43,324 nucleotides of DNA. Origin: Elioraea tepidiphila DSM 17972 (lineage in GTDB: Bacteria; Pseudomonadota; Alphaproteobacteria; Acetobacterales; Acetobacteraceae). The notes under the pieces are model-generated. The model was not told the DNA's origin and did not search any database. It worked only from the letters and a program-made list of their open reading frames with translations. Position numbers and translations under genes: made by a program. Positions 756 through 15,788 of this stretch are shown piece by piece. The stretch is taken from contig NZ_KB899938.1 in the NCBI RefSeq assembly GCF_000378465.1, positions 1 to 43,324 of the forward strand. The letters run 5' to 3'. Within the stretch, counting starts at the first letter, position 1; each line of letters opens with the position of its first letter.

Positions 756-1550
756 CTAGCGCGCTGCGGGATGCAGCCCGGCGAAGAACGCCGCGCGATC
801 GCGGGCCCCCCGCAGCAGCAGCGTCATGTCGTTCTCGGTCAGCACCATCCGCACGCCGGCGCCGATCGCCGCACGCCAGACGGCCTCCACCGGCGGCCCA
901 CCGAGCCCGACGAACTTGCCGACCGCGCCGGCGGCTGCCGTGCACGTCGCGACCGCCTCCGCGAGCTCGCGGCTCTGGTAGCCGCCGGGCAGGCCAAGGT
1001 CCCAAAGCAGGTCGGAGGCACCGATGAAGATGCCGTCGATCCCTTCCGTCGCGGCAATCGCGGCGACATTCTCGACCGCCCGCGCGCTCTCGATCATCGC
1101 GATCACGACGACCTCTGCGTTGAACCGCGCGCAGGCCTCGGCAAGCTTGAGGCCGTAGCCGAATTGCGGCAGCGAGCCCGGCACCGAGAGCTTCCCACGC
1201 GGGGCGAAACGGCAAGCGGCCGCGATCGCCGCCGCCTGTTCGGCCGTGTCAACGTGCGGGGCCAGCACGCCGAGCGCGCCGTTGGTCAGCAGTCCAGCGA
1301 TCTCACACGCATCGTGTGAGGCCGGACGCGCAAGCGGCAGCACACCAGACCGGATCGCGCCGAGCGCGATGTCGTAGGCGAGATGCGGTGTCATCGGGCT
1401 GTGCTCGAAGTCGAGCATCATCCAAGCGAAGCCGCACTCGGCGAGCATCGCGCCGATCTCGGCGCTACGGCTGAAGCGCACATTGCTCCCGAGGACGATC
1501 CCGCCACCGCTGATCGTCGCACGGAAGCGTGTCGCCGGACTGACCGTCAT
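756..1550 (-). CDS. HpcH/HpaI-type class II aldolase
   Basis: A 264-residue protein of the 2-oxo-acid aldolase/citrate lyase fold (4-hydroxy-2-oxoheptanedioate aldolase type), which splits hydroxy-oxo acids into pyruvate and an aldehyde using a divalent metal. The family residues are in place: His50 in DFEHSPMT, Arg75, Glu154 in MIESARAVENV and Asp180 in IGASDL. Their spacing matches what I recall for HpaI (45, 70, 149, 175). The length is normal. It is the last gene of a minus-strand operon behind an ABC transporter, and its start overlaps the permease stop by one base (TGATG), so translation is probably coupled. It may act on the end-product of the imported compound. The exact substrate cannot be told. 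Confidence 0.88.
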   Translation of the reverse strand: MTVSPATRFRATISGGGIVLGSNVRFSRSAEIGAMLAECGFAWMMLDFEHSPMTPHLAYDIALGAIRSGVLPLARPASHDACEIAGLLTNGALGVLAPHVDTAEQAAAIAAACRFAPRGKLSVPGSLPQFGYGLKLAEACARFNAEVVVIAMIESARAVENVAAIAATEGIDGIFIGASDLLWDLGLPGGYQSRELAEAVATCTAAAGAVGKFVGLGGPPVEAVWRAAIGAGVRMVLTENDMTLLLRGARDRAAFFAGLHPAAR

Positions 1551-2389
1551 CAGGCCCGCCAGCGCAGCACGTGACGCTCAAGCCGCTTCAGTCCGCCGTT
1601 GATCGCTGCCCCCACCACAGCCAGGACGACGAGTCCGGCGAAGGTGCTCGCGGTGTCGAACATTGCCGAGGACTGTGCGATCAGGAACCCGACCCCGCGG
1701 TTCGAACTCATGAACTCGCCGACCACGGCACCGATCAGAGCGTAAGGGACCGACACCTTGAGCCCGGTGAACACCCACGCCGCCGCCGAGGGCAGGATCA
1801 CTTTGCGCAGCAGCTGCCACTCGCCTGCCCCCATGATGCGTGTGGCATGGATGTGCACCGGGTTGACGTCGCGTACCCCCGCATAGGTGTTCAGGAACAC
1901 GAGGAAGAACACGATCACGGCGGATACGGCGACCTTGGACTCGATGCCTATCCCGAACCACATGATGAACAGCGGCGCGAGCGCGATCTTCGGCAGGCAG
2001 TAGATCGCGGTGATGTAGGGATCGAAGATGGTCGCGAGATCGTTCGACCGGCCGAGCGCGAAGCCGATCGTGAAACCGATCAGCGAGCCGAGCAGGAAGC
2101 CAAGTCCCGTTGCGGTCAGCGTGAAGGAGAGATGGTAGAACAGCGTGCCGTCCGAGAGCCACTGCCACAGCCGGCCACCGACCGCGACCGGGCTCGAGAC
2201 GAAGAATGCGTCGATCAGCCGGTCGGAGGCGAACTCCCAGAACGCCAGGAACACCACACCGACCAGCACGCGCAGCGCCATCAGCACCTGGTGGCGGCGC
2301 GCCTCGGCCGCGGCATGGGCAGCAGCAGCAGCGGAAGGCCGGCCCGGGGCGAACTCGTCGGCCTCGTAGACGCCGGCCCGCGTGGTCAT
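1550..2389 (-). CDS. ABC transporter permease, SsuC/TauC/NitT type
   Basis: A 279-residue inner-membrane permease of the nitrate/sulfonate/taurine uptake family. After a hydrophilic Ala-rich N-terminus of about 35 residues it has roughly six hydrophobic segments. The cytoplasmic loop ATRIMGAGEWQLLRKVILP carries the EAA-type motif that docks the ATPase. Its start overlaps the stop of the ATPase gene by four bases (ATGA). With the ATPase and binding protein upstream it forms a complete importer. The class transports small organic ions or pyrimidine/thiamine precursors, and the substrate here is unknown. Confidence 0.92.
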   Translation of the reverse strand: MTTRAGVYEADEFAPGRPSAAAAAHAAAEARRHQVLMALRVLVGVVFLAFWEFASDRLIDAFFVSSPVAVGGRLWQWLSDGTLFYHLSFTLTATGLGFLLGSLIGFTIGFALGRSNDLATIFDPYITAIYCLPKIALAPLFIMWFGIGIESKVAVSAVIVFFLVFLNTYAGVRDVNPVHIHATRIMGAGEWQLLRKVILPSAAAWVFTGLKVSVPYALIGAVVGEFMSSNRGVGFLIAQSSAMFDTASTFAGLVVLAVVGAAINGGLKRLERHVLRWRA

Positions 2390-3165
2390 GCGGCATCCTC
2401 CTCGCGGCGGATATCGGGTTCGAGCGCGGACCAGAGCGTCTCATAGAGCTCCTGGAAGCGTCGGTCGAAGCGGATGCGGAAGATGTCGCGCGGCCGCGGC
2501 AGGTCGATTTCGTGCACCGACTGCACGCGGCCTGGCCTCGTCGTGAAAACCACAACCCGATCGGCGAGTGCCACCGCTTCGGCGATGTCGTGGGTGACGA
2601 ACACCACGGTCTTGCGGCTCTCCTCCCAGATCGCCGTCAGTTCGGCCTGCATGACGAGCTTGAGCTGCGCGTCGAGGGCGCCGAACGGCTCGTCCATCAG
2701 GAGGGTCGGCGGGTCATAGGCGAGCACCTGGGCCAAGGCGACACGCTTGCGCATCCCGCCGGAGAGTTCAACCGGGAAGTGTCGGCGAAACTGCTCCAGC
2801 TTGACCATGTTCAGCATCCGGTCGATGCGTGCGCTCGCGTCCGGTTTGGCCATGCCCTGGAGTTCAAGCGGCAGGCCGATATTGTCCTCCGCGGTGCGCC
2901 AGGGCAGCAGGCTGTCCACCTGCGTCATGTAGCCGACGCGTCGGTTGATGCCGTCGACCACGCGGCCGTCATGGACGATGCGCCCATCGCTCGGCGGAAT
3001 GATCCCGGCGATCATGTTCAGCATCGTCGACTTCCCGCATCCCGATGGGCCGAGGAAGGCGACGAACGCGCCATCCTCGATCGTCAGGGTCACCGGGGCG
3101 AGCGCCTCGATCTCGCGGCCGCGACGCAGGTAGCGCTTGGCTGCGCCCTCGATCTCGATCGCCAT
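2386..3165 (-). CDS. ABC transporter ATP-binding protein, SsuB/TauB/NrtD type
   Basis: A 259-residue ATPase with Walker A GPSGCGKST near residue 39, signature LSGGMRKRVALAQ, Walker B TLLMDEPFGALD and a following switch histidine in VTHDIAEA. The SGGM(R/K) form of the signature and the overall length are typical of the nitrate/sulfonate/taurine subfamily. It lies 22 bases after the binding-protein gene and overlaps the permease by four bases, so it powers that importer from the cytoplasmic face. All catalytic motifs are intact. Confidence 0.93.
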   Translation of the reverse strand: MAIEIEGAAKRYLRRGREIEALAPVTLTIEDGAFVAFLGPSGCGKSTMLNMIAGIIPPSDGRIVHDGRVVDGINRRVGYMTQVDSLLPWRTAEDNIGLPLELQGMAKPDASARIDRMLNMVKLEQFRRHFPVELSGGMRKRVALAQVLAYDPPTLLMDEPFGALDAQLKLVMQAELTAIWEESRKTVVFVTHDIAEAVALADRVVVFTTRPGRVQSVHEIDLPRPRDIFRIRFDRRFQELYETLWSALEPDIRREEDAA

Positions 3166-3187
3166 CTCCGCTGCTCCGGTGGCGTGA

Positions 3188-4282
3188 TCAGGCCTTCATC
3201 GCGGCTTCGACGAACCGAAGGTCCCACGCGTCGCCGAAGGCATAGCTTTCGGGCGGCGGCGGTTGGTTCGTGAGGCGAAGCTCGTCCTTCAGGAACTCCA
3301 TGTTCAGCTCGAAGTGACGCTGCGTCGGTACCGGCGTGGCCATGTAGATGTCGATATTGTTCACGAAGCTCGTCTCGAACAGCTGGTCCTCCATGCCGGT
3401 GAACCACTCCTTGGACCAGGCCTTGAAGTCGTCAGGAGTCTTCTTGATGGCTTCGAGTGCCATCGCCACGCCCTTGCAATAGGCGGTGAGCAATTCACCC
3501 TTCTCGCGCAGCGTCCGCTCGGTGACCGACGCGGTGATGTAGAGATAGTCAGCGAGCGCTGGCGGGGGATTGGTGGACATGTTGAACAGGTACACCGCGC
3601 CGAAGCGCTGCACAGCGAGATCGGACGTCGGCGACGACAGACAGAAGCCGTCGAGCTGGTTGTTCTGCATTGCCGCCAGCATCGCCGGTCCACCGCCACG
3701 CACGGGCACGAGCTGCCCATCGCGGTCCGGATCCAGCCCACCGAGCCGCATGACGTAGCGGATGAGCTGGTCCGGGCCAGCGCCGACGCCGGTGGTGCCG
3801 AGCCGCAGCCCCCTCAGCGCGCGCCCCTTCGCGGCCGGATCGGACGCCTCCGTCACGCCGGCGCGATCGGCGAGCTCCTTCTTGATGACGATGTTCGAGG
3901 CGTACTTGTTCACCATGCCGCAGATCATCTTGATGGGCTGACGGCGGATCTGGACGCGCATGTTCTGGGTAGGCGCGCCGAGCAGGATGTCGGTGGCGCC
4001 GGCCAGCAGCGCATCCTGGTTCACGCCCCGCTCGGTCGCGGCCATTCGGACCCGGAGCCCGGCCCTCTCGAACATTCCCCGTGAGCTGGCATAGTCCTCG
4101 GCCGCCCAGAGCCACGACTTGGCGGTGGCGCGCAAGGTGCTGAGCTCGCCCGTCTGCGCGCGTGCGGACGGTGCGAGCAGCAGGGCCGAGGCGGCACCCT
4201 GCATGGCGGCGACACCACCGACCGCAAGGCTCGCGCGCAGCATCGCGCGGCGCGACTTGGCCATCTCCAGCGTCCTGTCCAT
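3188..4282 (-). CDS. ABC transporter substrate-binding protein, NMT1/SsuA type
   Basis: A periplasmic binding protein of about 364 residues. The chosen start (ATG at 4282) has GGGGAG about six bases upstream. Alternative starts at 4300 and 4264 have a purine run jammed against the codon. The N-terminus carries a twin-arginine-like export signal (SRRAMLRASLAVGG, then a hydrophobic stretch ending SARAQ). The mature part resembles NMT1/THI5-like and SsuA proteins, as in the NQDALLAGATDILLGAPTQN segment, which contacts small ligands in this fold. As first gene of the operon it probably sets the specificity of the importer. Proteins of this family bind sulfonates, nitrate, pyrimidines or aromatic acids, and I cannot pick one. 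Confidence 0.85.
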   Translation of the reverse strand: MDRTLEMAKSRRAMLRASLAVGGVAAMQGAASALLLAPSARAQTGELSTLRATAKSWLWAAEDYASSRGMFERAGLRVRMAATERGVNQDALLAGATDILLGAPTQNMRVQIRRQPIKMICGMVNKYASNIVIKKELADRAGVTEASDPAAKGRALRGLRLGTTGVGAGPDQLIRYVMRLGGLDPDRDGQLVPVRGGGPAMLAAMQNNQLDGFCLSSPTSDLAVQRFGAVYLFNMSTNPPPALADYLYITASVTERTLREKGELLTAYCKGVAMALEAIKKTPDDFKAWSKEWFTGMEDQLFETSFVNNIDIYMATPVPTQRHFELNMEFLKDELRLTNQPPPPESYAFGDAWDLRFVEAAMKA

Positions 4283-4422
4283 CTCCGGCTCCCCATCCAT
4301 CCTCCCGTCCCTTTGGCGACCGCCGATGCGGATGGCGCATGCGCGGACGGGTTGTCGTGTCACCGTAGTGCAGGCATCCTTGCCCGGCAAGGCAGCCTTG
4401 CTGTTGCAGAGCCGAAAGCACA
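4283..4422. promoter_or_regulatory. Divergent promoter region with overlapping palindromes
   Basis: This 140-base gap separates the minus-strand transporter operon from the plus-strand hyuB operon and must hold both promoters. It contains two overlapping dyads: CCTTGCC-C-GGCAAGG at 4378-4392 and GCAAGGC-A-GCCTTGC at 4387-4401. They form three alternating half-sites within 24 bases. That arrangement looks like an operator for a dimeric regulator able to bind two registers. No regulator gene lies in the cluster. I could not identify convincing -35/-10 boxes. Confidence 0.5.
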
Positions 4423-6048
4423 ATGCGCGCGCCCACCCACGCGACTGATGTCGTCACGCTCGGTGTCCTCTGGCAGCGTTTGACCGGGCTGATGGATGAG
4501 GTCGCGCAGGCCTTCGTGCGCACGAGCTTCAGCGCGGTGGTGCGCGAGAACTGGGATCTCGCGGTGTCGCTGATGGACGCGCAAGGCCGCCAGTTCGCGC
4601 AGTCCTCGCGCTCGATCCCCTCTTTCCTCGGCACCATGCCGCGCACCTTGCGGGCCATGCTGGCGCGCATCCCTGCGCAGAGCCTGAAGCCCGGCGATGT
4701 GCTGATCAGCAACGATCCGTGGCTCGGCACCGGGCATCTGAACGACATCACGCTCGCGCGACCGATCTTTCTCGACGGCCGGCTGATCGCATTCGTGGGC
4801 GGCACGTTCCACTGCGTCGATGTCGGTGGGGCGCCGCGTCCCGATGCGCGCGACGTGTACGAGGAGGGACTGACCATCCCGATCTGCCGCATCGTCAAGG
4901 CCGGGGTCGAGGACCGTGAGATCGTCGGCTTCCTGGTCGAGAACTTCCGCGAGCCCGACGAGGCGATGGGCGATATCCGTGCGATGTTCGCTGCCTTCGG
5001 GGTGGCCGAGCGGCGCCTGCTTTGCATCCTCGATCAGGAGCGGGTTGTGGAACTCGGGCCGATCGTGGACGCGATCCTGGCACGTTCGGAGGCGAGCATG
5101 CGTGCGGCGCTCGCGGCCGCACCCGACGGCGTGGTCGAGGATGAGACGGTGGCGGACGGGTTTGAGGCGCGGCTGCCTATCCGCTGCCGGATCGAGAAGC
5201 GTGGGGACGGGATCGCGCTCGACTTCGCCGGAACAGCACCGCAGGTGCCGCATCCCGTAAACTCGCCGTTCGGCTTCAGCAGCGCCTATGCCGCCTACGC
5301 CGTGAAGTGCGCCTTCAATCCGCGCGCGCCGAACAACGATGGTGGCCTGCGACCGATCACGATCAGCGCGCCGGAAGGCTGTCTGGTCAATCCGCGCCGG
5401 CCGGCGCCGGTGTGGGGCCGGCATCTGTCCGGCCACTATCTGCCGTTCGTTGTCCTCGGCGCGCTTGCGAAGCTCGTGCCCGAGCGCGTGGCGGCGGAAG
5501 CCGGGGCGCCGGCCTGGAACGTGTACTTCCGCGGCGAAGACCGCACGGGTCGGCGCTTCGCGAAGATGTACTTCATGAGCGGTGGCCACGGTGCGCGCGC
5601 CGCAAGCGACGGCCCGTCGGTGCTGTCGTTCCCGACCAACGTCGCGAACACCCCGGCCGAGCAGTTCGAGAACGATGTGCCGTTGCTGGTGACGGAGCGG
5701 CGGCTGATCCCCGACAGCGGTGGCGCGGGCCGGCAGCGTGGCGGGCTCGGCCAGCGCATCGCGTTCCGAAACATCGGCATGGCGCCGGTGCGTTTCATGT
5801 ATCGGCACGAGCGGGTGCTGCACCCGCCGCGCGGCCTGCTCGGAGGCGAGCCGGGCGCATGCGGTCGCGAGCTGCTGGACGGCAAGCCCATCCCGGCAAA
5901 GACCGCGGGCTCGCTCGATCCCGGCAGCACGCTCGCTTTCGAGACGCCCGGCGGCGGTGGCTTCGGCCCACCTTCGGAACGCCAGCAGGCCGACCACGAA
6001 GCCGATCTCGTCGAGGGCCTGATCACGGGCGCAGGACGTCCCGCGTGA
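4423..6048 (+). CDS. hyuB: Hydantoinase B / oxoprolinase-type subunit (HyuB family)
   Basis: A 541-residue protein of the HyuB family, the partner subunit of ATP-dependent hydantoinases, 5-oxoprolinase and acetone carboxylase. Diagnostic stretches are VRTSFSAVVRENWDLAVSLM near the N-terminus, the NDPWLGTGHLNDITL segment, and the C-terminal ETPGGGGFGPP with its poly-Gly loop. The length is normal for a stand-alone subunit. The ATG at 4423 has only a weak purine-rich upstream site. Its stop overlaps the GTG start of hyuA, so the two subunits are made together. The family opens cyclic amides or carboxylates ketones at the cost of ATP. The true substrate is not readable from sequence. Confidence 0.9.
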   Translation: MRAPTHATDVVTLGVLWQRLTGLMDEVAQAFVRTSFSAVVRENWDLAVSLMDAQGRQFAQSSRSIPSFLGTMPRTLRAMLARIPAQSLKPGDVLISNDPWLGTGHLNDITLARPIFLDGRLIAFVGGTFHCVDVGGAPRPDARDVYEEGLTIPICRIVKAGVEDREIVGFLVENFREPDEAMGDIRAMFAAFGVAERRLLCILDQERVVELGPIVDAILARSEASMRAALAAAPDGVVEDETVADGFEARLPIRCRIEKRGDGIALDFAGTAPQVPHPVNSPFGFSSAYAAYAVKCAFNPRAPNNDGGLRPITISAPEGCLVNPRRPAPVWGRHLSGHYLPFVVLGALAKLVPERVAAEAGAPAWNVYFRGEDRTGRRFAKMYFMSGGHGARAASDGPSVLSFPTNVANTPAEQFENDVPLLVTERRLIPDSGGAGRQRGGLGQRIAFRNIGMAPVRFMYRHERVLHPPRGLLGGEPGACGRELLDGKPIPAKTAGSLDPGSTLAFETPGGGGFGPPSERQQADHEADLVEGLITGAGRPA

Positions 6049-8147
6049 GCGATCCTCGGCTGCGGCTCGGTGTCGATATCGGCGGCACCTTCACCGATCT
6101 CGTCCTGAGCGATCCCGCAAGCGGCGCGCTGTGGAACGGCAAGGTGCTGACCACGCCCGCCGATCCATCCGAGGGCGTCCTCGCAGGCATCGATGAGGTG
6201 ACGCGGCTTGCCGGTGTCGCGCCGCAGGCGATCGCCCAGGTCATCCACGGCACCACCCTGGTCGCCAATGCGATCATCGAGCGCAAGGGCGTGCGTACCG
6301 GCTTCGTCACCACGGCGGGGTTCCGTGATCTGCTGGTGATGGCGCGCGAGTGGCGCTGGGACATCTATGACCTGAACATCACGCTTGCCGCGCCGCTCGT
6401 GCCCCGCTCGCGCTCGGTCGAGGTCACCGAACGGCTCGGCCCCGACGGAGCGGTCCTGATCCCCTTCGACCCAGGCTCGGCGGAGGAGGCCGTGGAGTGG
6501 CTTGCCGCGATGGGGGTCGAGGCGGTGGCGGTGACATTTCTGCACGCCTTCCGCAACCCCGCGCACGAGCGGGCGATGGCGGAGGTCATCGCCCGCCACC
6601 TGTCCGATGTCGAGGTGTCGCTGTCCAGCGAGGTGGCGCCTGCGCTCGGCGAGTACGAGCGTGCGACGACGACGGTTGCCAACGCCTATGTCCAGCCGGT
6701 GTTTCGTCGCTATCTCGCGCGCCTCGCCGAGGGGCTGCGCGCGCTCGGCGTACGCTCGGAACTGCTGCTGATGCAGTCGGATGGCGGCACGATCCATCAG
6801 GGAGCGGCCATGCGATACCCGGTGCGGCTGGTGCAGTCCGGCCCGGCGGGTGGTGCGCAGGCGACTGCGCTTGCCGGTGCGGCGATCGGCGCCCACGACG
6901 TGCTGGCCTTCGACATGGGCGGCACCACCGCCAAGGCCTGCCTGATCCCCAACGGCGAGCCGTCTCACACCTCCGTCTTCGAGGTCGCGCGCATCGCCCG
7001 TTTCCGCCCCGGCAGTGGCCTGCCGCTGCTGGTGCCGGCGATCGACATGATCGAGATCGGCGCGGGCGGCGGCTCGATCGCGCGTGTCAACGCGCTCGGC
7101 GTGATCGAGGTCGGGCCGGACAGTGCCGCGGCCGATCCGGGCCCCGCGTGCTACGGCCGCGGCGGCACGCAACCGACCGTGACGGATGCCGATCTGCTGC
7201 TCGGGCATCTCGATGCCGGAAGCTTTCTCGGCGGTACGATGCGCCTGGACCGCGCCGCTGCGGAGGCGGCGATCCGGCGCGCGATCGCCGAGCCGCTCGG
7301 GCTTTCGGTGATCGACGCCGCGCTCGGCATTCGCGCGATCGTGGACGAGAGCATGGCGCAGGCCGCAGCGATCCATGCGATCGAGAAGGGCGTGCGCGTC
7401 GCCGACTACGCCATGGTCGCGATCGGCGGCGCCGGGCCGGTCCATGCCTGCGATGTCGCGCGTCGGCTCGGCATGCGCCGGGTGATCTGCCCGGCGGGTG
7501 CGGGTGTGGCCTCGGCCTTCGGCTTCCTCGCGAGCCCCGTCGCCTTCGCTGCCGCGCGTTCGCACATCATTCCGCTCGCCGCCGTCTCCGCGGACGAGGC
7601 GGCGGTACTGCTTGACGCGCTTGCCGACGAGGCGCTCTGCCATCTCGCCGGCACGGGCGTCGATCACAGCGCGGCCGGGCTCGATCGGTTGGCGGAGCTG
7701 CGCTATCGCGGCCAGGGGCACGCGATCGAGGTGGCGCTGCCCGATCCGCGCGCGGGCGACTGGCACGGGCGCACGCAGGCGGCGTTCGAGGCGCGTTACC
7801 GGACGCTCTACGACCGGATCGAGCCCAGAGGCGAGATCGAGATCGTGACATGGCGTGTCGTCGCGCGGGGTCCACGGCCGCAGATGCGTATGTCGGCGGC
7901 CGTGACGTCCGACGGCGAGGCAGTCAAAGGTGTTCGGGCCGTGTTCTGCGCCAACGCCCGCAGGTTCCGTGACGCGACCGTGTACGACCGCTATCGTCTT
8001 GCGCCGGGAAGGCTGATTGTCGGACCTGCGGTGGTCGAGGAACGCGAGAGCACGGCCGTGATCCCAGAGGGCGCGACCGCTTCGACGGATGCGGCCGGCC
8101 ACCTGGTGATCAGGCTCGCGGAAGCAGACGGGGGAGAAATGACGTGA
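6045..8147 (+). CDS. hyuA: Hydantoinase/oxoprolinase ATPase subunit (HyuA family)
   Basis: A protein of about 700 residues. The frame is open far upstream, but the GTG at 6045 is the natural start: it overlaps the hyuB stop (GTGA) and puts LGVDIGGTFTDLVL, the N-terminal phosphate-binding motif, at residues 7-20. A second motif, LAFDMGGTTAKACLI near residue 286, belongs to the actin-like ATPase core, followed by the conserved GAGGGSIA segment. The C-terminal VVEERESTAVIPEG matches the family end. It would phosphorylate or activate the cyclic substrate while HyuB completes turnover. It overlaps the next gene by four bases. Confidence 0.9.
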   Translation: MSDPRLRLGVDIGGTFTDLVLSDPASGALWNGKVLTTPADPSEGVLAGIDEVTRLAGVAPQAIAQVIHGTTLVANAIIERKGVRTGFVTTAGFRDLLVMAREWRWDIYDLNITLAAPLVPRSRSVEVTERLGPDGAVLIPFDPGSAEEAVEWLAAMGVEAVAVTFLHAFRNPAHERAMAEVIARHLSDVEVSLSSEVAPALGEYERATTTVANAYVQPVFRRYLARLAEGLRALGVRSELLLMQSDGGTIHQGAAMRYPVRLVQSGPAGGAQATALAGAAIGAHDVLAFDMGGTTAKACLIPNGEPSHTSVFEVARIARFRPGSGLPLLVPAIDMIEIGAGGGSIARVNALGVIEVGPDSAAADPGPACYGRGGTQPTVTDADLLLGHLDAGSFLGGTMRLDRAAAEAAIRRAIAEPLGLSVIDAALGIRAIVDESMAQAAAIHAIEKGVRVADYAMVAIGGAGPVHACDVARRLGMRRVICPAGAGVASAFGFLASPVAFAAARSHIIPLAAVSADEAAVLLDALADEALCHLAGTGVDHSAAGLDRLAELRYRGQGHAIEVALPDPRAGDWHGRTQAAFEARYRTLYDRIEPRGEIEIVTWRVVARGPRPQMRMSAAVTSDGEAVKGVRAVFCANARRFRDATVYDRYRLAPGRLIVGPAVVEERESTAVIPEGATASTDAAGHLVIRLAEADGGEMT

Positions 8148-9778
8148 CGGTTCAGGCCAGGACCGCCATCGCTGCGCCGACCGTGGCGGATGTGCTGGCG
8201 GATGTGTTCGCCCAGCTCGGCGTCAGCCGAATCTTCGGCGTGCCCGGCGGCGGATCGAGCCTCGATCTGATCGAGGCAGCGGCGCGTGCCGGCATTCCGT
8301 TCACCCTCGCGCGCCACGAGGGGGCTGCGGCGATGATGGCGACCGCCTGCGCCGAGGTCACCGGCCGGCCAGGTGCGGTCCTGGTCACCAAGGGGCCAGG
8401 GCTTGCGAACGCCGCCAACGGCATCGCCAATGCCTCGCTGGAGCGCGCGCCGGTGCTGCTGGTGACGGACGGGTTCACACCGACACAGGCCGGCTATGTC
8501 ACGCACCAAGTGTTCGATCAGGCGGCGTTCATGGCGCCGCTCGTGCGCGGCTATGCCGTGACCAGCGGACCCGATCTGGGCGCAAGGATCGCCGAACTTG
8601 TCGCGGCGATGCACGGGCCGTGTCGCGGCCCGGCCGTTCTGGAGATGACCGGGGAGGCGGCGCGGCGGCTCGCCGAGACCGTGACGCTCGGTCCGCTGCC
8701 GTTCGCGTCGGCGCCCGATGACGCCAGCGTGACATCCGCAGCGGCGCTGGTGCGGAAGGCACGGCGCCCGGTGATCGTCGTCGGACTGGAGGCGCGCGAC
8801 GCGTCGCGCTCGGTGCGCGCGCTCGCCCGGACGCTCGGCGCGCCGGTGCTGGTCACCTACAAGGCGAAGGGCGTGATCGCCGATGACGACCCGTTCTTCG
8901 CCGGCATCTTCACCGGCGGCGCGGCGGAAGCACCGCTCGTCGATCAGGCGGACGTGATCCTGCTGGCCGGCGTCGATCCGGTGGAGCTGATCCTGCAACC
9001 CTGGCGCTACCGCGCCCCGGTGATCGATCTCGTGCGGTTCCGTCGTCCGGTGCACTACACGGAGCCTGCTGTGGTCATCGAGGGCGCGATCGCGGCCGGT
9101 CTGGACGCCCTCGCGGCGGACGCGCGCGCAAGCGCCTGGAGCCCGACGGAGATCGCGAGGGCGCGGACCGGCTGGCTCGCGGCGCTCGCCAATCCCGGCG
9201 CGGGCGATCGCGTCGGGCCCGAGCGCGTCGTCACGCTCGCCGCCGAGGCCTGCGCGCGCGCGGGGCTCCATCCGCGCGTGACGGTGGATGCGGGCGCGCA
9301 CATGTTCAGCGCGACCAGCTTCTGGCCGTGCCGGGAACCCAACGATCTGCTCATCTCGAACGGCCTCGCCTCGATGGGCTTCGCTCTGCCGGCCGCAATC
9401 GCCGCCGCGTTGGCGGACCCCGAGCGCCCGGCACTCGCCTTCACCGGCGATGGCGGCCTCCTCATGTGTCTCGGAGAACTCGCGACCGCCGCGAGCTCCG
9501 GTGCGCGGGTCGTCGTGATCGTGTTCAACGACGGCTCGCTGAGCCTGATCGATCTGAAGAAGGGACGGCGCGCGCTGCCGCCGGGCAGCGTCGGCTGGGC
9601 GCATCCCGGCTTCGCCGAGGCGGCGCGGGGGATGGGGTGTCTCGGCTTCACCGTCGAGACGGTGGCGGAGTATCGTACGGCCCTCGACGCGGCACTCGCG
9701 GCGCCAGACCGGGCGCTGATCGATGTGCGCATCGATGCCGCGGGCTATCCGGCCCAGCTCGCGGCCGCACGCGGATGA
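8144..9778 (+). CDS. Thiamine-diphosphate-dependent enzyme, acetolactate synthase/decarboxylase-like
   Basis: A 544-residue enzyme starting at a GTG inside the hyuA stop (GTGA). Three domains are visible: an N-terminal pyrimidine-binding part with the catalytic glutamate (Glu59 in LARHEGAAAMM), a central part (about 190-310), and a C-terminal part with the GDGG motif at about 435-438 leading to VFNDGSLSL, the Mg/diphosphate site. Such enzymes decarboxylate or ligate 2-oxo acids, with relatives among acetolactate synthases, benzoylformate decarboxylases and sulfopyruvate-type enzymes. Its place next to HyuAB is unusual and suggests it handles the opened product. Its stop overlaps the next start (ATGA). 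Confidence 0.85.
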   Translation: MTVQARTAIAAPTVADVLADVFAQLGVSRIFGVPGGGSSLDLIEAAARAGIPFTLARHEGAAAMMATACAEVTGRPGAVLVTKGPGLANAANGIANASLERAPVLLVTDGFTPTQAGYVTHQVFDQAAFMAPLVRGYAVTSGPDLGARIAELVAAMHGPCRGPAVLEMTGEAARRLAETVTLGPLPFASAPDDASVTSAAALVRKARRPVIVVGLEARDASRSVRALARTLGAPVLVTYKAKGVIADDDPFFAGIFTGGAAEAPLVDQADVILLAGVDPVELILQPWRYRAPVIDLVRFRRPVHYTEPAVVIEGAIAAGLDALAADARASAWSPTEIARARTGWLAALANPGAGDRVGPERVVTLAAEACARAGLHPRVTVDAGAHMFSATSFWPCREPNDLLISNGLASMGFALPAAIAAALADPERPALAFTGDGGLLMCLGELATAASSGARVVVIVFNDGSLSLIDLKKGRRALPPGSVGWAHPGFAEAARGMGCLGFTVETVAEYRTALDAALAAPDRALIDVRIDAAGYPAQLAAARG

Positions 9779-10509
9779 GCGCCTCGCCGCTGCCCTCCGG
9801 CACGTCGGCCCGACTGGGCGCGATCGTGCCGCCCGCCAACCCGGCCGCCGAGCCGGAGCTGCACGCGTTGACCGGTCCGTCCGCGGTGCTGCACATCGCC
9901 CGCCTGCCTGTGCTGCCGGGTGATCTGCGCGCGCGCTGCGAGGGCTACGGCGCGGCCTATCCGGAGGCCGTGCGCGCGTTCGGCGATCTCGATCTCGCCG
10001 CGATCGGCATCGCCTTCATGAGCGCGACCTATCGCGACGGTCCGGACGCCGACGCCGCGCTGTGCGGGCGTCTCTCCGAGCTGGCCGGACGTCCGGTCGC
10101 GACCGCGAGCTTCGCCGTGACCGAGGCGCTGCGTGCGCTTGGCGTGCGGCGGATCGCACTCGTCTCGCCCTATCCCGACTGGCTGACCGAGTGGTCGCGC
10201 GGTTATTGGCGGCAGGGCGGGTTCCAGTTGGCGGCCTTGGCGACGATGGGCGACGTGTTCCGCGCCTATGACGCGAGCGAGGACGAGCTGGCCGACGCGA
10301 TTGCGGCGGTTGGTGCCACGGAGGCGGATGCCGTGCTGCTCACCGGCACGGGTGCCTACACGATCGGCGCGCTGGCGCGCATCGGTGCAGCGCACCAGGG
10401 GTGCTACCTCACCTCCAATCTCTGCCTCGCCTGGTGGCTGATGCGCGCGGCAGGGCTCCCGCAGGCGCCCCTGCTCACGGCCCTCAACCCCGACCTCGCC
10501 GCCCGCTGA
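9775..10509 (+). CDS. Maleate isomerase/Asp-Glu-hydantoin racemase-like protein
   Basis: A protein of about 244 residues beginning at the ATG at 9775, which overlaps the previous stop. The N-terminal LGAIVPPANPAAEPELHAL (residues 14-32) has the phosphate/carboxylate-loop pattern of maleate cis-trans isomerases and arylmalonate decarboxylases. ALGVRRIALVSPYPDWL matches the central strand-loop of the fold. At the two places where the catalytic cysteines of this superfamily usually stand, the sequence reads AFMSATYRDG (80-89) and LTGTGAYTIGAL (189-200). Both lack Cys. It may therefore use different chemistry or be a lyase or binding variant. Its position in the hyuBA operon suggests handling of a chiral or unsaturated diacid intermediate. 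Confidence 0.72.
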   Translation: MSASPLPSGTSARLGAIVPPANPAAEPELHALTGPSAVLHIARLPVLPGDLRARCEGYGAAYPEAVRAFGDLDLAAIGIAFMSATYRDGPDADAALCGRLSELAGRPVATASFAVTEALRALGVRRIALVSPYPDWLTEWSRGYWRQGGFQLAALATMGDVFRAYDASEDELADAIAAVGATEADAVLLTGTGAYTIGALARIGAAHQGCYLTSNLCLAWWLMRAAGLPQAPLLTALNPDLAAR

Positions 10510-10532
10510 GAGCCCCCGGAGATCCTGAGAGC

Positions 10533-11183
10533 ATGCCGGACGATCCAGATGCCCCTGACGGCACGGCGATCCTCGCCGAGGTGGAGGCGAAGCGCGGCTA
10601 CACGCTCCCGTATCACCGCATGTTCGCTGCCCACGCACCCCGGCTGCTGCGTGACTACGACCGTTTCTACGAGAGCCTGACGCTCACGCCCCGCGTGCTG
10701 ACCCCACGCGAGCGCGAGACCGTCTGGGCAGGTCTGCTGGCGGCCGCGCGGGAGGTGCACGGCTTCATCCACATGCGCCGTGCCGTCGCGGCAGGACTCA
10801 GCAACGATGACATCGCGCGCGCCGTGGCGATCGCGGCCGTCACCGAAGGTTTGGGCGTGGTCGAGTTCGTCGGGGCGCATTGGCCGCGCTGGGCCCTCCC
10901 GGATACGCTGAAGCAACGCTACCTCGCCGCGTTCGAGGCGGTGCGCGGCACGCTGGAGCCGTCACTCGCGCATCTGGTTGCCGCGACATGCCAGGCGGCG
11001 CGCCGGCACCGTCAGGGCACGGTGCTGCATCTCGCCGAGGCCTGCGCTGCCGGCGCTACGTCTGCGCAGATCTGCGAGGCGTTCTCCTATCTGCTGCTGC
11101 CCTGCGGCGGCAACACGCTGATCGAGGCGGTCGAATACTGGGAGGAGGCGGCGCGCGAGCGGCTGGTTCCCCCGCCCTACTGA
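10533..11183 (+). CDS. Carboxymuconolactone decarboxylase (AhpD-like) domain protein, copy 1
   Basis: A 216-residue, largely helical protein starting at the ATG at 10533. It appears to hold two CMD-type repeats (about 35-110 and 135-205). The first contains ETVWAGLLAAAREVHGFIHM followed by RRAVAAGLSNDDI, the signature layout of this fold. The CxxC pair of peroxidase AhpD is absent (HGFIHM instead), so a thiol peroxidase role is unlikely and a decarboxylase or lactone-type role is more plausible. It ends the hyuBA operon after a 23-base gap. It shares the opening KRGYTLPYHRM pattern with the convergent gene at 11177-11899 and is probably its paralogue. Confidence 0.75.
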   Translation: MPDDPDAPDGTAILAEVEAKRGYTLPYHRMFAAHAPRLLRDYDRFYESLTLTPRVLTPRERETVWAGLLAAAREVHGFIHMRRAVAAGLSNDDIARAVAIAAVTEGLGVVEFVGAHWPRWALPDTLKQRYLAAFEAVRGTLEPSLAHLVAATCQAARRHRQGTVLHLAEACAAGATSAQICEAFSYLLLPCGGNTLIEAVEYWEEAARERLVPPPY

Positions 11184-11899
11184 GCCACAGATCCTGCACG
11201 CTGCACGGCCTCGTCGAAGCCGCCCTGGCCTTGCAGCCGTGCCCAGGCGGCGAAGGCCGGTGATGGTTGCACGGTGCCCGCACGGATCAGATCGAGCCAG
11301 ACGCGCGCCGCCTCGACAAAGCGCGGCACGCTGCCGGGGAACATCATGATGGTGAGCGCCTCTGCGAGTTCGAGCTCGGGCACTCCGATCACATAGGCGA
11401 CGGCGATTGCGCGCGCGAGCAGCGTGAAGTCGCCACGCGCGGCATGCACCGCGGCGACGGCCGGAACGGCGATGCGCAGCGCCATGTCGCCCGCGTTGAC
11501 CGCGAGATCGGCGCGGTAGCGGTCGGCGATCGGCACATCCGGCAGGTGCCGGGCCCAGTGCTCGGCGATGAAGGTGTAGGCGGGTGCACCGACCGCCCAG
11601 GCGGTCAGGCGGATTGCCGCGGCGATCTCGTCCGCCGTGCCGCCGCCCTGGCGGAACCTGGCGATGTGATGGCTGGCGATCGCCTCGTCGGTCGCGATCA
11701 GCACGCAGAGCCAGACGAACTCGCGCGCCCGGTCGTCGAGCTGTTTCCGTTCGAGCGCGAGTGCGGTGTAGAGCGCGTCGTAATGCGCCAGCATCGTCTC
11801 GGACATCGCGGCGAGCAGGCCGTGATGCGGCAGCAGATAGCCGCGCTTGTCCTTGACGGCCCGAACCCGCGCGATCAGCACCTGATCATCGCTCGCCAT
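11177..11899 (-). CDS. Carboxymuconolactone decarboxylase (AhpD-like) domain protein, copy 2
   Basis: A 240-residue protein with the same plan as the convergent gene at 10533-11183: an N-terminal KRGYLLPHHGLLAAM, a helical CMD-type segment (FVWLCVLIATDEAIASHHI, then RFRQGGGTADEI), and a second repeat in the C-terminal half. It also lacks the AhpD CxxC motif but keeps a His pair. An AAGGGA ribosome site precedes the ATG at 11899. The two genes face each other, and their 3' ends overlap by seven bases. They may form a heteromer or act on related substrates. It is transcribed on its own. Confidence 0.72.
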   Translation of the reverse strand: MASDDQVLIARVRAVKDKRGYLLPHHGLLAAMSETMLAHYDALYTALALERKQLDDRAREFVWLCVLIATDEAIASHHIARFRQGGGTADEIAAAIRLTAWAVGAPAYTFIAEHWARHLPDVPIADRYRADLAVNAGDMALRIAVPAVAAVHAARGDFTLLARAIAVAYVIGVPELELAEALTIMMFPGSVPRFVEAARVWLDLIRAGTVQPSPAFAAWARLQGQGGFDEAVQRAGSVAQ

Positions 11900-12020
11900 G
11901 GCATCATTCCCTTCCGCTGCGGCTCCCCCAGAATCGGGCCGATCTTGCGGGAGTGTGCGGGTTTGTCACGGGGCGGGGGAGGGCCGGTCCCTCGACAGGC
12001 GCTCGAGACGTGGCTCGGGA

Positions 12021-13136
12021 TCACACGAGGGGGCGCAACGAGCGGAGCGCGGCGAGGCACGCCTCGACGTCGCTGAGCGCGTTGTAGCCATGCACGCTGA
12101 TGCGCACGCGTCCGCGGCCGTTCCACACCAGCACGCCCCGTTCGGCGAGCCGCGCGGTGATCTCCTCTGCGTTCGGGCTCTCGAAGCAGACCGAGGCGCC
12201 GTGATGCGCGGGGTCCGCGGGCGTGGTGCTGGCGATGCCGAGTTCGGCGAGACCGGCGAGCAGGGCCGTGGTGCAGCCCTGGATGTGCCGCTGCACCGCT
12301 GACGGGTCGAAGTCGCGCAGGTAGTCGAGCGCGCCCGCCAGCACATAGACCGGCCCGTGCGCGGGATTGCCACGGCAGAACCGCATCGCGTCCGGCCGCA
12401 GCGCGGGTACTTGATCCCAGCGCGGACGTGCCGTGCCGCCGAGCGAGTGCCAGCCGGCCGTGCGCGGCGCCCAGCCGGGCTGGCGCGCGCGGTTCCAGTA
12501 GGCGACGGCCACGCCGGTCATGCCGAGCAGCCATTTGTAGGTCGCGGCGAAGGCGAAGTCGGCGATCGCGGCGGCGATCGGCATCGCGCCTGCGGCCTGC
12601 GTGTGATCGACCACCAGCAGCGCGCCGACGCGGTCGGCGAGCGCGCGCAGCGCCGGCAGATCGGCCCGCGCGCCGTGCAGGTACGAGACATGGCTCGCGC
12701 CGATCAGCCGCGTGCGGCCGTCCACCAGGCTCGCCATCGGGCGTTCGGCCGAGGCGAGCCGCACCTCGGCCGCGCCCGCGACCAGCAGCGGGGCGATCAC
12801 CGAGGGATACTCGTTCGCGTCGAACACGGCGTTATCGCCCGGCCGCCAGTCGATGCTCTCGATCAGCATCGAGACGCCCTCGGCGACCGAGGAGACGAAG
12901 CCGATATCCTCCACCGCCACACCCCACAGGGCGGCGGCGAGGGCGCGGGCGCGCTCCACCTCCGCCTCCTGGGCGTGGCGGCCGGCCTCGCCGTTGCTCT
13001 TGTCGACCGCGTAGCGCCGCAGCGCCTCGTCGTGCCGGAGCAGGAACGGAGTTTCGCCGCCAGCGCAGAGATGTGCGATCCCGGGTCCGATGCGGAAAGC
13101 CGCAGGATCGAACAGCGGGACCGCGGGGGCGCTCAC
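12021..13136 (-). CDS. Class V aminotransferase/cysteine desulfurase-like PLP enzyme
   Basis: A 371-residue fold-type I PLP enzyme related to isopenicillin-N epimerase-like class V aminotransferases. The start is a GTG at 13136 overlapping the stop of the hydrolase gene (GTGA). The cofactor lysine is Lys201 in ATYKWLLGMTG, and the aspartate that binds the pyridine nitrogen lies in LLVVDHTQAAGAMPI. The C-terminal half ends with NGRGRVRISVHGYN, a typical small-domain motif. No cysteine-loop signature of NifS is visible. It is the last gene of the operon with the carbamoylase and may deaminate or epimerise the amino acid released. Substrate unknown. Confidence 0.85.
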   Translation of the reverse strand: MSAPAVPLFDPAAFRIGPGIAHLCAGGETPFLLRHDEALRRYAVDKSNGEAGRHAQEAEVERARALAAALWGVAVEDIGFVSSVAEGVSMLIESIDWRPGDNAVFDANEYPSVIAPLLVAGAAEVRLASAERPMASLVDGRTRLIGASHVSYLHGARADLPALRALADRVGALLVVDHTQAAGAMPIAAAIADFAFAATYKWLLGMTGVAVAYWNRARQPGWAPRTAGWHSLGGTARPRWDQVPALRPDAMRFCRGNPAHGPVYVLAGALDYLRDFDPSAVQRHIQGCTTALLAGLAELGIASTTPADPAHHGASVCFESPNAEEITARLAERGVLVWNGRGRVRISVHGYNALSDVEACLAALRSLRPLV

Positions 13137-14158
13137 CGCATCAGCCCGCGCTGGTCCATCCAGGCCTGGATGCGGGCCGCGATCGCGTCGCTGTTGCGGT
13201 CCATCATCAGCATATGGCTGTTGCCGGGAATGCCCTCCTTCGGCAGGTCGAGCGTGTCGGCACGCCCGCCTGCCGCCGTGATCGCCTGTTGCCAGCGCGT
13301 GACATTCGGGACCAGCCGCGTCCACAGCGGATGACCTTCGATGAAGTCGCCCCACACGACGAGATGCGGGACGTCCTTCAGCACCGTCGCATCCGCGCGC
13401 GCCGGGTCGGGCGCCCCCGAGGGCTCGATCGCGATCAGCGCCTTGACCTTGTCGGGGGCGGCGAGGGCGGCGTTGAAGCCGAAATTGCCGCCCTGGCTGT
13501 GCACCATGATCACGCAAGGGCAGACGCGCTGCACGAGCGCGTTGTATGCCGCCTGGATCGCCGGATCGGTGGTGACCCAGCGCGGCACGGACTGCTTGCC
13601 GAACTGGTCCCAGGCCGCCACGGGGAACTGGGTGGTCGGATAGGCGCGCCGCTGCGCCGGGTCCGGGTTCCAGCCGTCGGCGGGGCCGACACGAAACAGG
13701 TGCCAGCCCTCGGCAAGCGAGCGGAAGATCGGCGCGGTGGGGAAGATCTCAGGAAAGCGCGCCCAGCCTGAACGGCCACGCTCGACCGCATCGGAGACAT
13801 AGACGTCATGACCCGCGCGCAGGAACGCCATCTGCCAGCCGGGCCGACCGTCGGGCGTGGTCTCCCAGGTGACGCCGGTCAGCCCGCCGCCATGCCACAT
13901 CAGCAGCGGATAGCGCGCGCGGGGGTTCGCGAGCCGCACGTACTGGACATACATCTGCTCGACCTGGAACTGCCCGTTCGGGTCGTAGCGGAACGGCGGC
14001 GCGCCGGCGGTGAAGGTGATCTCCTGGGTCGGCAGCCCCTCCAGCGTGGCGGTCCGCCCGCCGATGTGGAAACTGCCGATCTCGCGCACCGCGATCTCCT
14101 GCGCGGCGGCAGGGGCGGCGAGCAGGAGGGCGGACAGGGCGGCCGCGATTGGGCGCAT
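13133..14158 (-). CDS. Secreted alpha/beta hydrolase, esterase 713-like
   Basis: A 341-residue protein with a cleavable signal peptide (MRPIAAALSALLLAAPAAAQ), preceded by GGGAGAG. The frame is open further upstream, but the signal peptide fixes the start at 14158. The nucleophile is Ser221 in MVHSQGGN. Glu245 in IEPSG and His315 in GNSHMLMMD complete a Ser-Glu-His triad. The 24-residue Ser-Glu and about 94-residue Ser-His spacings agree with esterase 713 of Alcaligenes as I remember it, which uses Glu instead of Asp. It would act in the periplasm on an ester or lactone. It sits between the ABM monooxygenase and the aminotransferase genes, with which it overlaps by four bases. Confidence 0.82.
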   Translation of the reverse strand: MRPIAAALSALLLAAPAAAQEIAVREIGSFHIGGRTATLEGLPTQEITFTAGAPPFRYDPNGQFQVEQMYVQYVRLANPRARYPLLMWHGGGLTGVTWETTPDGRPGWQMAFLRAGHDVYVSDAVERGRSGWARFPEIFPTAPIFRSLAEGWHLFRVGPADGWNPDPAQRRAYPTTQFPVAAWDQFGKQSVPRWVTTDPAIQAAYNALVQRVCPCVIMVHSQGGNFGFNAALAAPDKVKALIAIEPSGAPDPARADATVLKDVPHLVVWGDFIEGHPLWTRLVPNVTRWQQAITAAGGRADTLDLPKEGIPGNSHMLMMDRNSDAIAARIQAWMDQRGLMR

Positions 14159-14211
14159 CGTTCTCTCCCTGACGGTTGGGTCAGTGACGCATTCGGAGCA
14201 GGAAGGGGTCA

Positions 14212-14520
14212 TCAGAGCGGGCGCAGAACGTGGATCGCCACACCCTTGACATAGGGTTTCACGGCGGCGCGGTAGGCCGTCATGTGCGGCGCGGTGCTGT
14301 GCGCCTGCAAGGCCGCCGCATCCCGCCAGCGCTCGACGATCACCACGGTGTCGGGCGGCAGAGGGCTCTGGGCGCCGAGCACGCCCGGTTGCTCCAGCGT
14401 CGCCTCGTAGGCCTCGCAGCCGTCCTCGGCCAGCACGGCGGGGCGGACCTCGGCGAAGGCGCGGCTCCAGGGCTCGAACCCCCCCTCGGCGAGCGTCACA
14501 GTGGCGATGACATGCAGCAT
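14212..14520 (-). CDS. ABM-domain (antibiotic biosynthesis monooxygenase/YgiN-like) protein
   Basis: A 102-residue dimeric alpha-beta-barrel protein. MLHVIATVTLAEGGFEPW opens the fold, the central GCEAYEATLEQPG is the usual second strand, and VIVERWRDAAALQAHSTAPHM is the hallmark helix with the conserved ERW and H. Family members oxidise quinols or small aromatics without cofactor, or degrade haem. This length matches YgiN-type quinol monooxygenases. It lies 17 bases after the carbamoylase gene in the same operon. The substrate is unknown. Confidence 0.85.
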   Translation of the reverse strand: MLHVIATVTLAEGGFEPWSRAFAEVRPAVLAEDGCEAYEATLEQPGVLGAQSPLPPDTVVIVERWRDAAALQAHSTAPHMTAYRAAVKPYVKGVAIHVLRPL

Positions 14521-14537
14521 TGCGGGATTCCTCGGGA

Positions 14538-15788
14538 TCAGAGCACGCGGTTGGCGCGCGCCAGCACGGCCTCGAACAGCACCTGCGCACCGGCGGCGGC
14601 GTGCTCGGGAAGGATGCTCTCGGCCTCGTTGTGGCTGAGCCCGTCCTTGCAGGGCACGAAGATCATCGCCGTCGGGATGATGCGCGCGACGGCGCAGGCA
14701 TCATGTCCGGCACCGGAGACGATCTCGCGCGCGGGGTAGCCGAGCCGCGCCGCCGCCTCGCGCACCAGCGCGACGCAGGCCGGGTCGAAGGGCTGTGCCG
14801 GATAGCGGAAGATCCGCGAGAGCGAGAGATCGAGCTTCAGGTCGGCCGCGATCGCGCGCGCCTCGGTCTCGAAACGCCGATCCAGCGCATCGATCACCGC
14901 ATCCGATGGGTGGCGGAACTCGGCCGAGAACGTCACCTTGCCCGGCACCACGTTGCGGCTGTTCGGTTCGACCGCGAGATAGCCGACCGTGCCGCGTCCG
15001 TCCTCGCCCTGCTCGCGCATCAGCCGATCGACGAGGTCGATCACCCGCGCCGCGCCAACGAGCGCATCCTTGCGCCGCGAGGGCGGCGTGGTGCCGGCAT
15101 GGCTCTCCCAGCCGGTGAGCGCGAGATCGTACCAGGCCATGGCCTGCGCGCCGGTGACGATGCCGATGGTCTTCTCTTCGGCCTCCAGGATCGGGCCCTG
15201 CTCGATGTGGAGCTCGAAATAGGCATCGGCCGCGAAGGCGCTGGCAGGCTGGTCGCCCTTGTAGCCGATCTGTTCCAGCGCCTCGCCGACCGTCATCCCC
15301 TCGGTGTCGGCGAGCGCATAGGCCTTCTCCAGCGCGATCCCGCCCACCCACACGCCCGAGCCCATCAGGGAGTGGCCGAAGCGGCTTCCCTCCTCGTCGG
15401 TCCAGTTGCAGAGGATCAGCGGCGCCTCGGTCTCGATCCCCCGCTCGTTCAGCGTGCGGATGACCTCCAGCCCGCCCAGCACGCCCAGCGCGCCGTCGAA
15501 CTTGCCGCCCGAGGGCTGGCTGTCGAGATGGCTGCCGAACATCACCGGCTTGCGCGCGGGGTCGCGGCCTTCACGCCGCGCGAACATGTTGCCGATCGCA
15601 TCGACGCTCACCGTCAGCCCCTCGGCTTCGCAGAGCGCGCGGAACCGGTCCCGTCCCTCCTTGTCGACCGTGGACAGGGTGAGTCGCCGCACACCGCCCT
15701 TCGGCGTGGCGCCGATTCGCGCCATTTCCATCAGGAGATCCCACAGTCGCCGCTCGTCGATCCGGACATTGCCGGCGAACACACCCAT
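14538..15788 (-). CDS. hyuC: M20-type N-carbamoyl-L-amino acid hydrolase/allantoate amidohydrolase
   Basis: A 416-residue zinc or manganese amidohydrolase of the hydantoinase/carbamoylase family. Metal and catalytic positions are seen: His87 and Asp89 in GSHLDSQPSGG, Asp98 in KFDGALG, Glu132-Glu133 in TDEEGSRF, His194 in ELHIEQGP and His386 in LSHNEAE. The dimerisation domain spans about 215-325. The ATG at 15788 follows AAGGAG at ideal spacing; the frame is open further upstream but without family sequence. The enzyme removes the carbamoyl group from N-carbamoyl amino acids (or acts on allantoate or beta-ureidopropionate), the step after hydantoin ring opening. First gene of a four-gene minus-strand operon, it fits the HyuAB genes 7 kb away. 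Confidence 0.88.
   Translation of the reverse strand: MGVFAGNVRIDERRLWDLLMEMARIGATPKGGVRRLTLSTVDKEGRDRFRALCEAEGLTVSVDAIGNMFARREGRDPARKPVMFGSHLDSQPSGGKFDGALGVLGGLEVIRTLNERGIETEAPLILCNWTDEEGSRFGHSLMGSGVWVGGIALEKAYALADTEGMTVGEALEQIGYKGDQPASAFAADAYFELHIEQGPILEAEEKTIGIVTGAQAMAWYDLALTGWESHAGTTPPSRRKDALVGAARVIDLVDRLMREQGEDGRGTVGYLAVEPNSRNVVPGKVTFSAEFRHPSDAVIDALDRRFETEARAIAADLKLDLSLSRIFRYPAQPFDPACVALVREAAARLGYPAREIVSGAGHDACAVARIIPTAMIFVPCKDGLSHNEAESILPEHAAAGAQVLFEAVLARANRVL

Follow-up and report, generated by a model that had tools for sequence, protein, structure and literature searches.

A conserved HyuB-HyuA-ThDP gene cassette in Elioraea tepidiphila and other bacteria, with a candidate route for amide catabolism

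What does a thiamine diphosphate (ThDP)-dependent enzyme do in an operon with both subunits of an ATP-dependent hydantoinase/oxoprolinase-type enzyme? The question is raised by contig NZ_KB899938.1 of Elioraea tepidiphila DSM 17972, a stretch of 43,324 nucleotides, here called the window. It is one complete contig (number 29) of the 56 that make up a 4.3-Mb genome. On its forward strand, HyuB, the metal-site subunit (4423..6048; PF02538, 5.4e-142), is followed by HyuA, the ATP-site subunit (6045..8147, GTG start; PF01968/PF05378/PF19278), and by the ThDP-dependent enzyme (8144..9778, GTG start; PF02775/PF02776/PF00205). The initial annotation, made from the sequence alone, had joined these genes with a racemase-like protein, paired CMD proteins, an importer-aldolase operon and a nearby carbamoylase operon into one possible catabolic system. 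Its genes, positions and family names are borne out by the reading frames, start codons and Pfam matches, and the four-base overlaps that it gave for HyuB, HyuA, the ThDP gene and the AMDase-like (its racemase-like) gene, together with the 23-base gap before the first CMD gene, are exact. Our results support HyuB-HyuA-ThDP as a widely conserved bacterial gene unit.

A search with the ThDP enzyme across 385 genomes of the class matched 39 genomes at 1e-70, its own included, and in 4 of the 20 regions around the best other matches HyuB and HyuA lie beside the ThDP gene. All 4 loci also have genes for an aminotransferase of class IV and for transporters of the TctC/TctA or LIV type. Two peptide patterns, derived by aligning these four HyuB proteins with that of the window, were scanned against a collection of species-level genomes; of 277 matching stretches, 259 encode HyuB relatives, and the best 80 of the 259 were retained. 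Because the four HyuB proteins behind the patterns were already known to lie beside ThDP and IlvE-like genes, this sample leans to members of the cassette. By title, the cassette records belong to Alpha-, Beta- and Gammaproteobacteria, and the titles name lakes, sea and groundwater.

Counting as neighbors the genes within 9 kb of HyuB, and as ThDP homologues proteins of at least 40% identity on either strand, we found HyuA in 75 of the 80 loci (the other five all end at most 0.7 kb past HyuB) and a ThDP homologue in 63; in 15 of the 17 loci lacking the latter, one or both flanks are shorter than 5.5 kb. Among the 41 loci flanked by at least 5.5 kb on each side, 11 of which are one close Roseomonas-like group, 39 carry the ThDP gene, 27 an IlvE-like aminotransferase gene, 26 both and 40 either. 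Of the 63 loci flanked by 2.3 kb or more on each side, 56 have the ThDP gene and 41 the aminotransferase gene. A second search with HyuB matched 37 of 395 genomes; five of the ten regions read repeat database loci (L223 is L105, L224 is L107, L226 is L106, L236 is L133 and L239 is L173), and among the five additions (L225, L234, L235, L237 and L238) the ThDP gene is found in L225, L234 and L238, that is, in three of four further well-flanked loci. The ThDP enzyme is a very frequent, not an obligate, partner of the cassette HyuB.

The genome of E. tepidiphila provides a control, as it has seven other HyuB genes (eight in total), 30-38% identical, and no match to the ThDP enzyme, the IlvE-like aminotransferase or the aldolase was found at any of the seven loci (18 kb read). 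After near-identical rows were removed, leaving HyuB differences of up to 49%, pairwise distances correlate with r of 0.789 for HyuB-ThDP (n=33), 0.858 for HyuB-aminotransferase (n=25) and 0.919 for HyuB-HyuA (n=31), against maxima of 0.160, 0.222 and 0.151 in 500 shuffles; such a correlation can arise from co-function and from the shared descent of a linked block alike. The linkage of these genes and their correlated descent are direct observations, and together the co-occurrence counts, the paralogue control and the distance correlations bear out the core of the initial annotation. The longer order that it proposed to look for elsewhere, HyuB-HyuA-ThDP-racemase-CMD, held in part: HyuBA-ThDP recurs, and the full order was seen in the window only, the AMDase-like gene being near 4 of the 80 cassettes and never after the ThDP gene. 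The lack of co-occurrence elsewhere that it had named as a refutation is found for the carbamoylase operon and not for HyuBA-ThDP. No description of such a cluster was found in the titles and abstract openings covered by a literature search outside which most subscription papers and all preprints lay. The cassette is real and conserved, so far undescribed in the searched literature, and assembled from known enzyme families.

HyuB, HyuA and the ThDP enzyme keep metal, phosphate-motif and cofactor residues, respectively. The HyuB alignment and tree comprise 67 of the 80 loci and the window; 13 rows were dropped, 2 at 84% coverage and 11 from the GGT group, apparently for a stop codon in the aligned stretch. 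The HyuB metal ligands D45, H105, D108 and H130 are identical in 68 of 68 rows, a count that under-represents the GGT group because of these 11 dropped loci. In the HyuA alignment (71 loci and the window), each position of the phosphate motifs D11-IGGTFTD and D290-MGGT is conserved in at least 97% of the 72 rows. The phosphate motifs of the family, as given in PMC8453981, are DxGGTxTD and DxGGT; at the adenosine motif, GxxPGP, the window has AADPGP, with the first Gly replaced by Ala and P365-G366-P367 conserved. The Lys of DMGGTTAK (Lys297) is found in all 72 aligned cassette HyuA proteins. The ThDP enzyme has three TPP domains, and E59, G435-D436-G437 and N462, which we take to be the activating Glu and the GDG...N metal motif, are conserved in at least 97% of 63 rows.

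The ThDP enzyme belongs to no assigned subfamily and is probably a 2-oxo-acid decarboxylase. Catabolic acetolactate synthase and 5-guanidino-2-oxopentanoate decarboxylase are among its nearest named families and share the cofactor residues, but the scores (260.2 versus a cut-off of 509, and 199 versus 500) reach roughly half of the curated values or less, and the Lys that follows GIPGA in AlsS aligns with a Ser of the window enzyme. A plasmid search returned two Variovorax ThDP homologues (48 and 44%) with no hydantoinase in the annotated stretches, one of which adjoins an aldehyde dehydrogenase gene. In L086 and L088 a GGT-like gene adjoins the ThDP homologue, and a RidA-like gene and binding proteins of the LIV type, both named by eye, lie close by, a further neighborhood of this ThDP group.

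Which reaction sequence could unite these enzymes? We favor, with a probability of about one half, a catabolic cassette in which amide hydrolysis by HyuBA is followed by transamination and ThDP-dependent decarboxylation. We infer each reaction, the order of the reactions and the nature of the substrate. The importer would take up a compound whose amide is cyclic (lactam- or ureide-like) or otherwise hard to hydrolyze. HyuA would activate it using ATP, and HyuB would hydrolyze the amide at its metal site, releasing an L-amino acid. Transamination of the latter to a 2-oxo acid would fall to an IlvE-like aminotransferase, which many loci encode in the cassette and which in E. tepidiphila is probably supplied from elsewhere in the genome; decarboxylation by the ThDP enzyme would then yield an aldehyde. 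An aldehyde dehydrogenase would then form the acid, with acyl-CoA dehydrogenases perhaps acting next in several lineages, and HpaI or RraA aldolases may serve a hydroxylated branch.

Most of what is seen of the partner genes, which include those for aminotransferases, aldehyde and acyl-CoA dehydrogenases, aldolases and GGT, would be accounted for if the ThDP enzyme acted on a product of an amino acid freed from an amide. Near HyuB we counted the aminotransferase in 48 of the 80 loci, tctC in 39, tctA in 19, HpaI aldolase in 9 and RraA aldolase in 7, and aldehyde dehydrogenase and GGT in 15 each; the aldehyde dehydrogenase, acyl-CoA dehydrogenase and GGT counts come from tblastn cut-offs or clustering, with family models run on examples. 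Of three cassette aminotransferases compared with the ilvE_I cut-off, those of L087 and L110 pass and that of L144 falls narrowly below. The Limnohabitans locus L110 reads hyuB-hyuA-aldehyde dehydrogenase-ThDP-RraA-tctC-aminotransferase. An acyl-CoA dehydrogenase-like cluster is present in 22 of 85 sequences, with three examples confirmed by family models, and L153 additionally encodes an aldehyde dehydrogenase, a thiolase and an enoyl-CoA hydratase. In the HyuB tree, HpaI aldolases occur in three branches and RraA aldolases in two. Elsewhere the E. tepidiphila genome has a single IlvE-like gene (49%) and a single, more distant homologue of class IV (32%). Near a freshwater cassette, L113 (17423-18619) encodes a pyridoxal phosphate enzyme that scores 486.6 against the PRK05957 cut-off of 498 and 232.1 against the cut-off of 415 for GntC of guanitoxin biosynthesis; it is probably no more than a related aminotransferase.

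The window's own form of the cassette adds an importer and an aldolase on the reverse strand, divergent from HyuB. These are an HpcH/HpaI-family aldolase (756..1550; PF03328, 4.6e-25, 88.7 versus a cut-off of 25 bits), an ABC importer permease (1550..2389; PF00528), its ATPase (2386..3165; PF00005) and an NMT1-type substrate-binding protein (3188..4282; PF13379/PF09084). The aldolase aligns with GarL over residues 8-249, and the His, Arg, Glu and Asp that we take to be its active-site residues are in place by eye; it scores under all five equivalog cut-offs matched and is therefore assigned at the family level, with no substrate. Downstream of the ThDP gene lie the AMDase/maleate-isomerase-fold gene (9775..10509, forward strand) and CMD1 (10533..11183, forward strand; PF02627), which is convergent with CMD2 (11177..11899, reverse strand; PF02627) over a 7-base overlap. 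In the 80-locus sample, CMD1, CMD2 and the importer binding protein each occur in 3 loci, and a GMC oxidoreductase in 4. The combination of importer, HpaI aldolase, HyuBA, ThDP enzyme and CMD pair recurs in four relatives: L105, L106 and L107 (HyuB 77-79%) and G004 (L225/L278; 76%) all have these genes, in an order that differs from the window's, together with a GMC oxidoreductase and no match to the AMDase-like protein, the reverse of the window. CMD1 and CMD2 are also convergent in L106, L274 and L278. The aldolase and CMD genes, which the initial annotation had counted as partners, are confirmed as such in these close relatives of the window.

The AMDase-like protein was called maleate isomerase/racemase-like, and the fold family is right (PF17645, arylmalonate decarboxylase, 1.4e-14, is the sole Pfam match), but both catalytic cysteines are absent: in the alignment there is no Cys at either active-site position, and a Thr stands at the position of the Cys by which 4fq7 and 4fq5 differ. 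Among 25 AMDase-like rows, including the window and L033-L052, the second-site Cys occurs in L050 only and the first-site Cys in eight rows, the window not among them. In 24 of the 25 rows of this branch, a Gly-Thr-Gly-like motif replaces the second catalytic Cys. The protein does not serve as a cassette marker, as HyuBA and ThDP genes occur together in none of the 20 loci collected with it; in L042 it follows an importer-aldolase operon, and in L052 a different HyuBA is nearby.

Several observations weigh against the proposed sequence of amide hydrolysis, transamination and decarboxylation. The ThDP gene is missing from two of the 41 well-flanked loci (L139 and L166), from L235 (flanks of 9.0 and 8.4 kb) and L237 (6.2 and 3.9 kb), and from L236, the wider cut of L133. 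No aminotransferase gene lies near the window HyuB, in L105 or L107, or in any of the 15 GGT loci. The ThDP enzyme scores below the cut-offs of all 25 NCBIfam families listed of the 54 matched, so that lyase or ligase chemistry is also possible. The position of Lys297 is an Asp in caprolactamase and N-methylhydantoinase and a Lys in the alpha' subunit of acetophenone carboxylase (Apc-alpha'). Finally, the importer occurs without HyuBA in 6 of the 11 other genomes that have it (stretches of 3 to 17 kb read).

The least unlikely of the alternatives is a gamma-glutamyl/5-oxoproline route, in which a (substituted) pyroglutamate would be opened to a glutamate analogue, transaminated to a 2-oxoglutarate analogue and converted by the ThDP enzyme to a succinic-semialdehyde analogue. 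It would account for the GGT genes near HyuB and for the GGT-like genes (32-68% to the GGT of L123) that accompany, in the stretches read, 7 of the 16 ThDP homologues lacking HyuBA, and aldolases would suit 4-hydroxy-2-oxo acids. The GGT of L123 passes TIGR00066 (399.3 versus 357.85). GGT-fold amidases act on other substrates too, however, and all 15 GGT loci, each with one GGT at 90-100% identity, represent a single close Roseomonas-like group. Oxoprolinases are members of the HyuBA family, according to PMC8453981.

It is unlikely that the window brings together two modules with unrelated substrates, the importer-aldolase-CMD(-GMC) genes and HyuBA-ThDP being neighbors by chance of local gene order. 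Close relatives of the binding protein are present in 12 of 200 family genomes, its own included. Besides the six genomes mentioned above (G038, G050, G103, G125, G163 and G177), where the importer stands with aldolase, GMC, CMD, aldehyde dehydrogenase or AMDase-like genes, there are four with HyuBA-ThDP beside it and one, G052, with an HyuBA of the Asp type and a CMD2 homologue. G038, moreover, has two cassette-type HyuB genes on other contigs. As the importer and HyuBA-ThDP are found both together and separately, the window joins two modules that are able to live apart. The chance of unrelated substrates is lowered by the four genomes that have both (L223-L226, L278) in a gene order unlike the window's, and by two additional branches of the HyuB tree in which an HpaI aldolase accompanies HyuBA-ThDP. 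In G052, the stretch L276 (3014-10739), where the importer family is paired with the Asp-type HyuBA, also has an isochorismatase-like gene by eye.

Could the cassette instead be a two-subunit ATP-dependent carboxylase? Here the Lys-type HyuA would phosphorylate bicarbonate, HyuB would transfer the carboxyl group, and a later C-C step would fall to the ThDP enzyme. Among solved structures, N-methylhydantoinase (PDB 7hk5) matches both subunits best by sequence (420 and 232 bits), but it is a single 1288-residue chain spanning both parts and has an Asp at the Lys site, whereas the cassette has two subunits; we know of no ThDP partner for it. Caprolactamase CapAB of Pseudomonas jessenii, which we take to be PDB 6yra from its length and motif, shares the HyuA/HyuB family, the metal ligands and the phosphate-binding motifs. 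The window proteins reach only 494 and 180 bits against the curated CapA and CapB cut-offs of 1000, and the position of CapA Asp302 is a Lys in the cassette HyuA. The vicinal disulfide of CapB (Cys-Cys) is Ser-Phe in 68 of 68 cassette HyuB rows, Leu38 is replaced by Glu or Asp (34 and 34 rows) and Ile62 by Ser (68 rows), the roles of these pocket residues being those given in PMC8453981. That paper equates the Asp of CapAB with Lys281 of Apc-alpha', which PMC5214803 assigns tentatively to bicarbonate.

The invariant Lys at this site speaks for carboxylation. Acetophenone carboxylase, whose subunits are related to those of the cassette, has five kinds of subunit (PMC5214803) against two in the cassette; no acetone or acetophenone carboxylase subunit beyond the HyuA- and HyuB-like ones is found among the genes assigned in 756-15788, and none was noticed by eye in the printed cassettes. 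The Lys type also occurs in two of the seven HyuA paralogues of this genome, one adjoining two M20-like amidase genes, a hydantoinase-like setting, and the other with a GGT-like gene about 5 kb off; therefore, the Lys alone does not imply a carboxylase. Caprolactamase, too, requires bicarbonate yet hydrolyzes (PMC8453981). A carboxylase is similarly unlikely as a whole. More doubtful still is a bolder version, an environmentally widespread biotin-free two-subunit bicarbonate activator of the Lys type that would pass its product directly to a new ThDP group for C-C cleavage; in the window's lineage, the AMDase-fold protein that lacks the cysteines and the CMD proteins would serve as accessories. 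Elsewhere in the same genome, L233 (G000:C23; positions 8455-14755 of L233) contains another HyuB-HyuA set with two M20-like amidase genes, whose products are 28-29% identical to HyuC of the window. What looks by eye like an ABC importer of the peptide type stands alongside; this set is a more likely hydantoin-type system.

The initial annotation had also drawn in the reverse-strand operon that encodes an M20 carbamoylase-like HyuC (14538..15788; PF01546), an ABM protein (14212..14520; PF03992), an esterase-like protein (13133..14158; PF00561, barely passing at 26.5 versus a cut-off of 25.8) and a class V aminotransferase (12021..13136, GTG start; PF00266). Its integrated scheme, ring opening of a cyclic ureide by HyuBA and decarbamoylation by HyuC, with the class V aminotransferase and the ThDP enzyme acting afterwards, is highly improbable: the operons are adjacent in the window, the HyuC subfamily match is good (609.7 bits versus 452) and in L269, alone among 9 loci, a hyuC homologue (73%) and an aminotransferase homologue start about 4 kb apart, but hyuC is near 1 of the 80 cassettes, the aminotransferase, esterase and ABM genes near none, and no HyuBA or ThDP gene is near relatives of the aminotransferase (present in 46 of 200 family genomes, its own included) in 9 of 9 loci read. 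These counts speak against the operon as part of the cassette, and it is best treated as separate. The textbook hydantoin system, HyuA-HyuB-HyuC with a racemase, has a linked carbamoylase, whereas the window HyuC lies in this separate neighboring operon. A catabolic route other than the textbook one, as first proposed, is plausible.

The remainder of the window past 17 kb holds ordinary housekeeping genes, judged by eye. Close to the contig edge, a 151-aa frame (270-725) with a marginal flavin reductase match at residues 77-146 (27.9 versus 27 bits) may be a fragment or a frameshifted gene. No tRNAs and no Rfam families at gathering score were found in the window, and no sigma-70-like promoter in 4150-4650; the shuffled controls gave none either, so the latter result is uninformative.

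HyuA and HyuB genes are common, with eight HyuB genes in this genome, and to our knowledge most are named by similarity. The recurrent pairing with a ThDP enzyme and an aminotransferase gives a testable handle on one branch of the family. It suggests a degradation route, as yet unnamed, that is shared by bacteria with records from lakes, sea and groundwater. New biocatalysts may be found in the ThDP group and among the AMDase-fold proteins that lack the cysteines.

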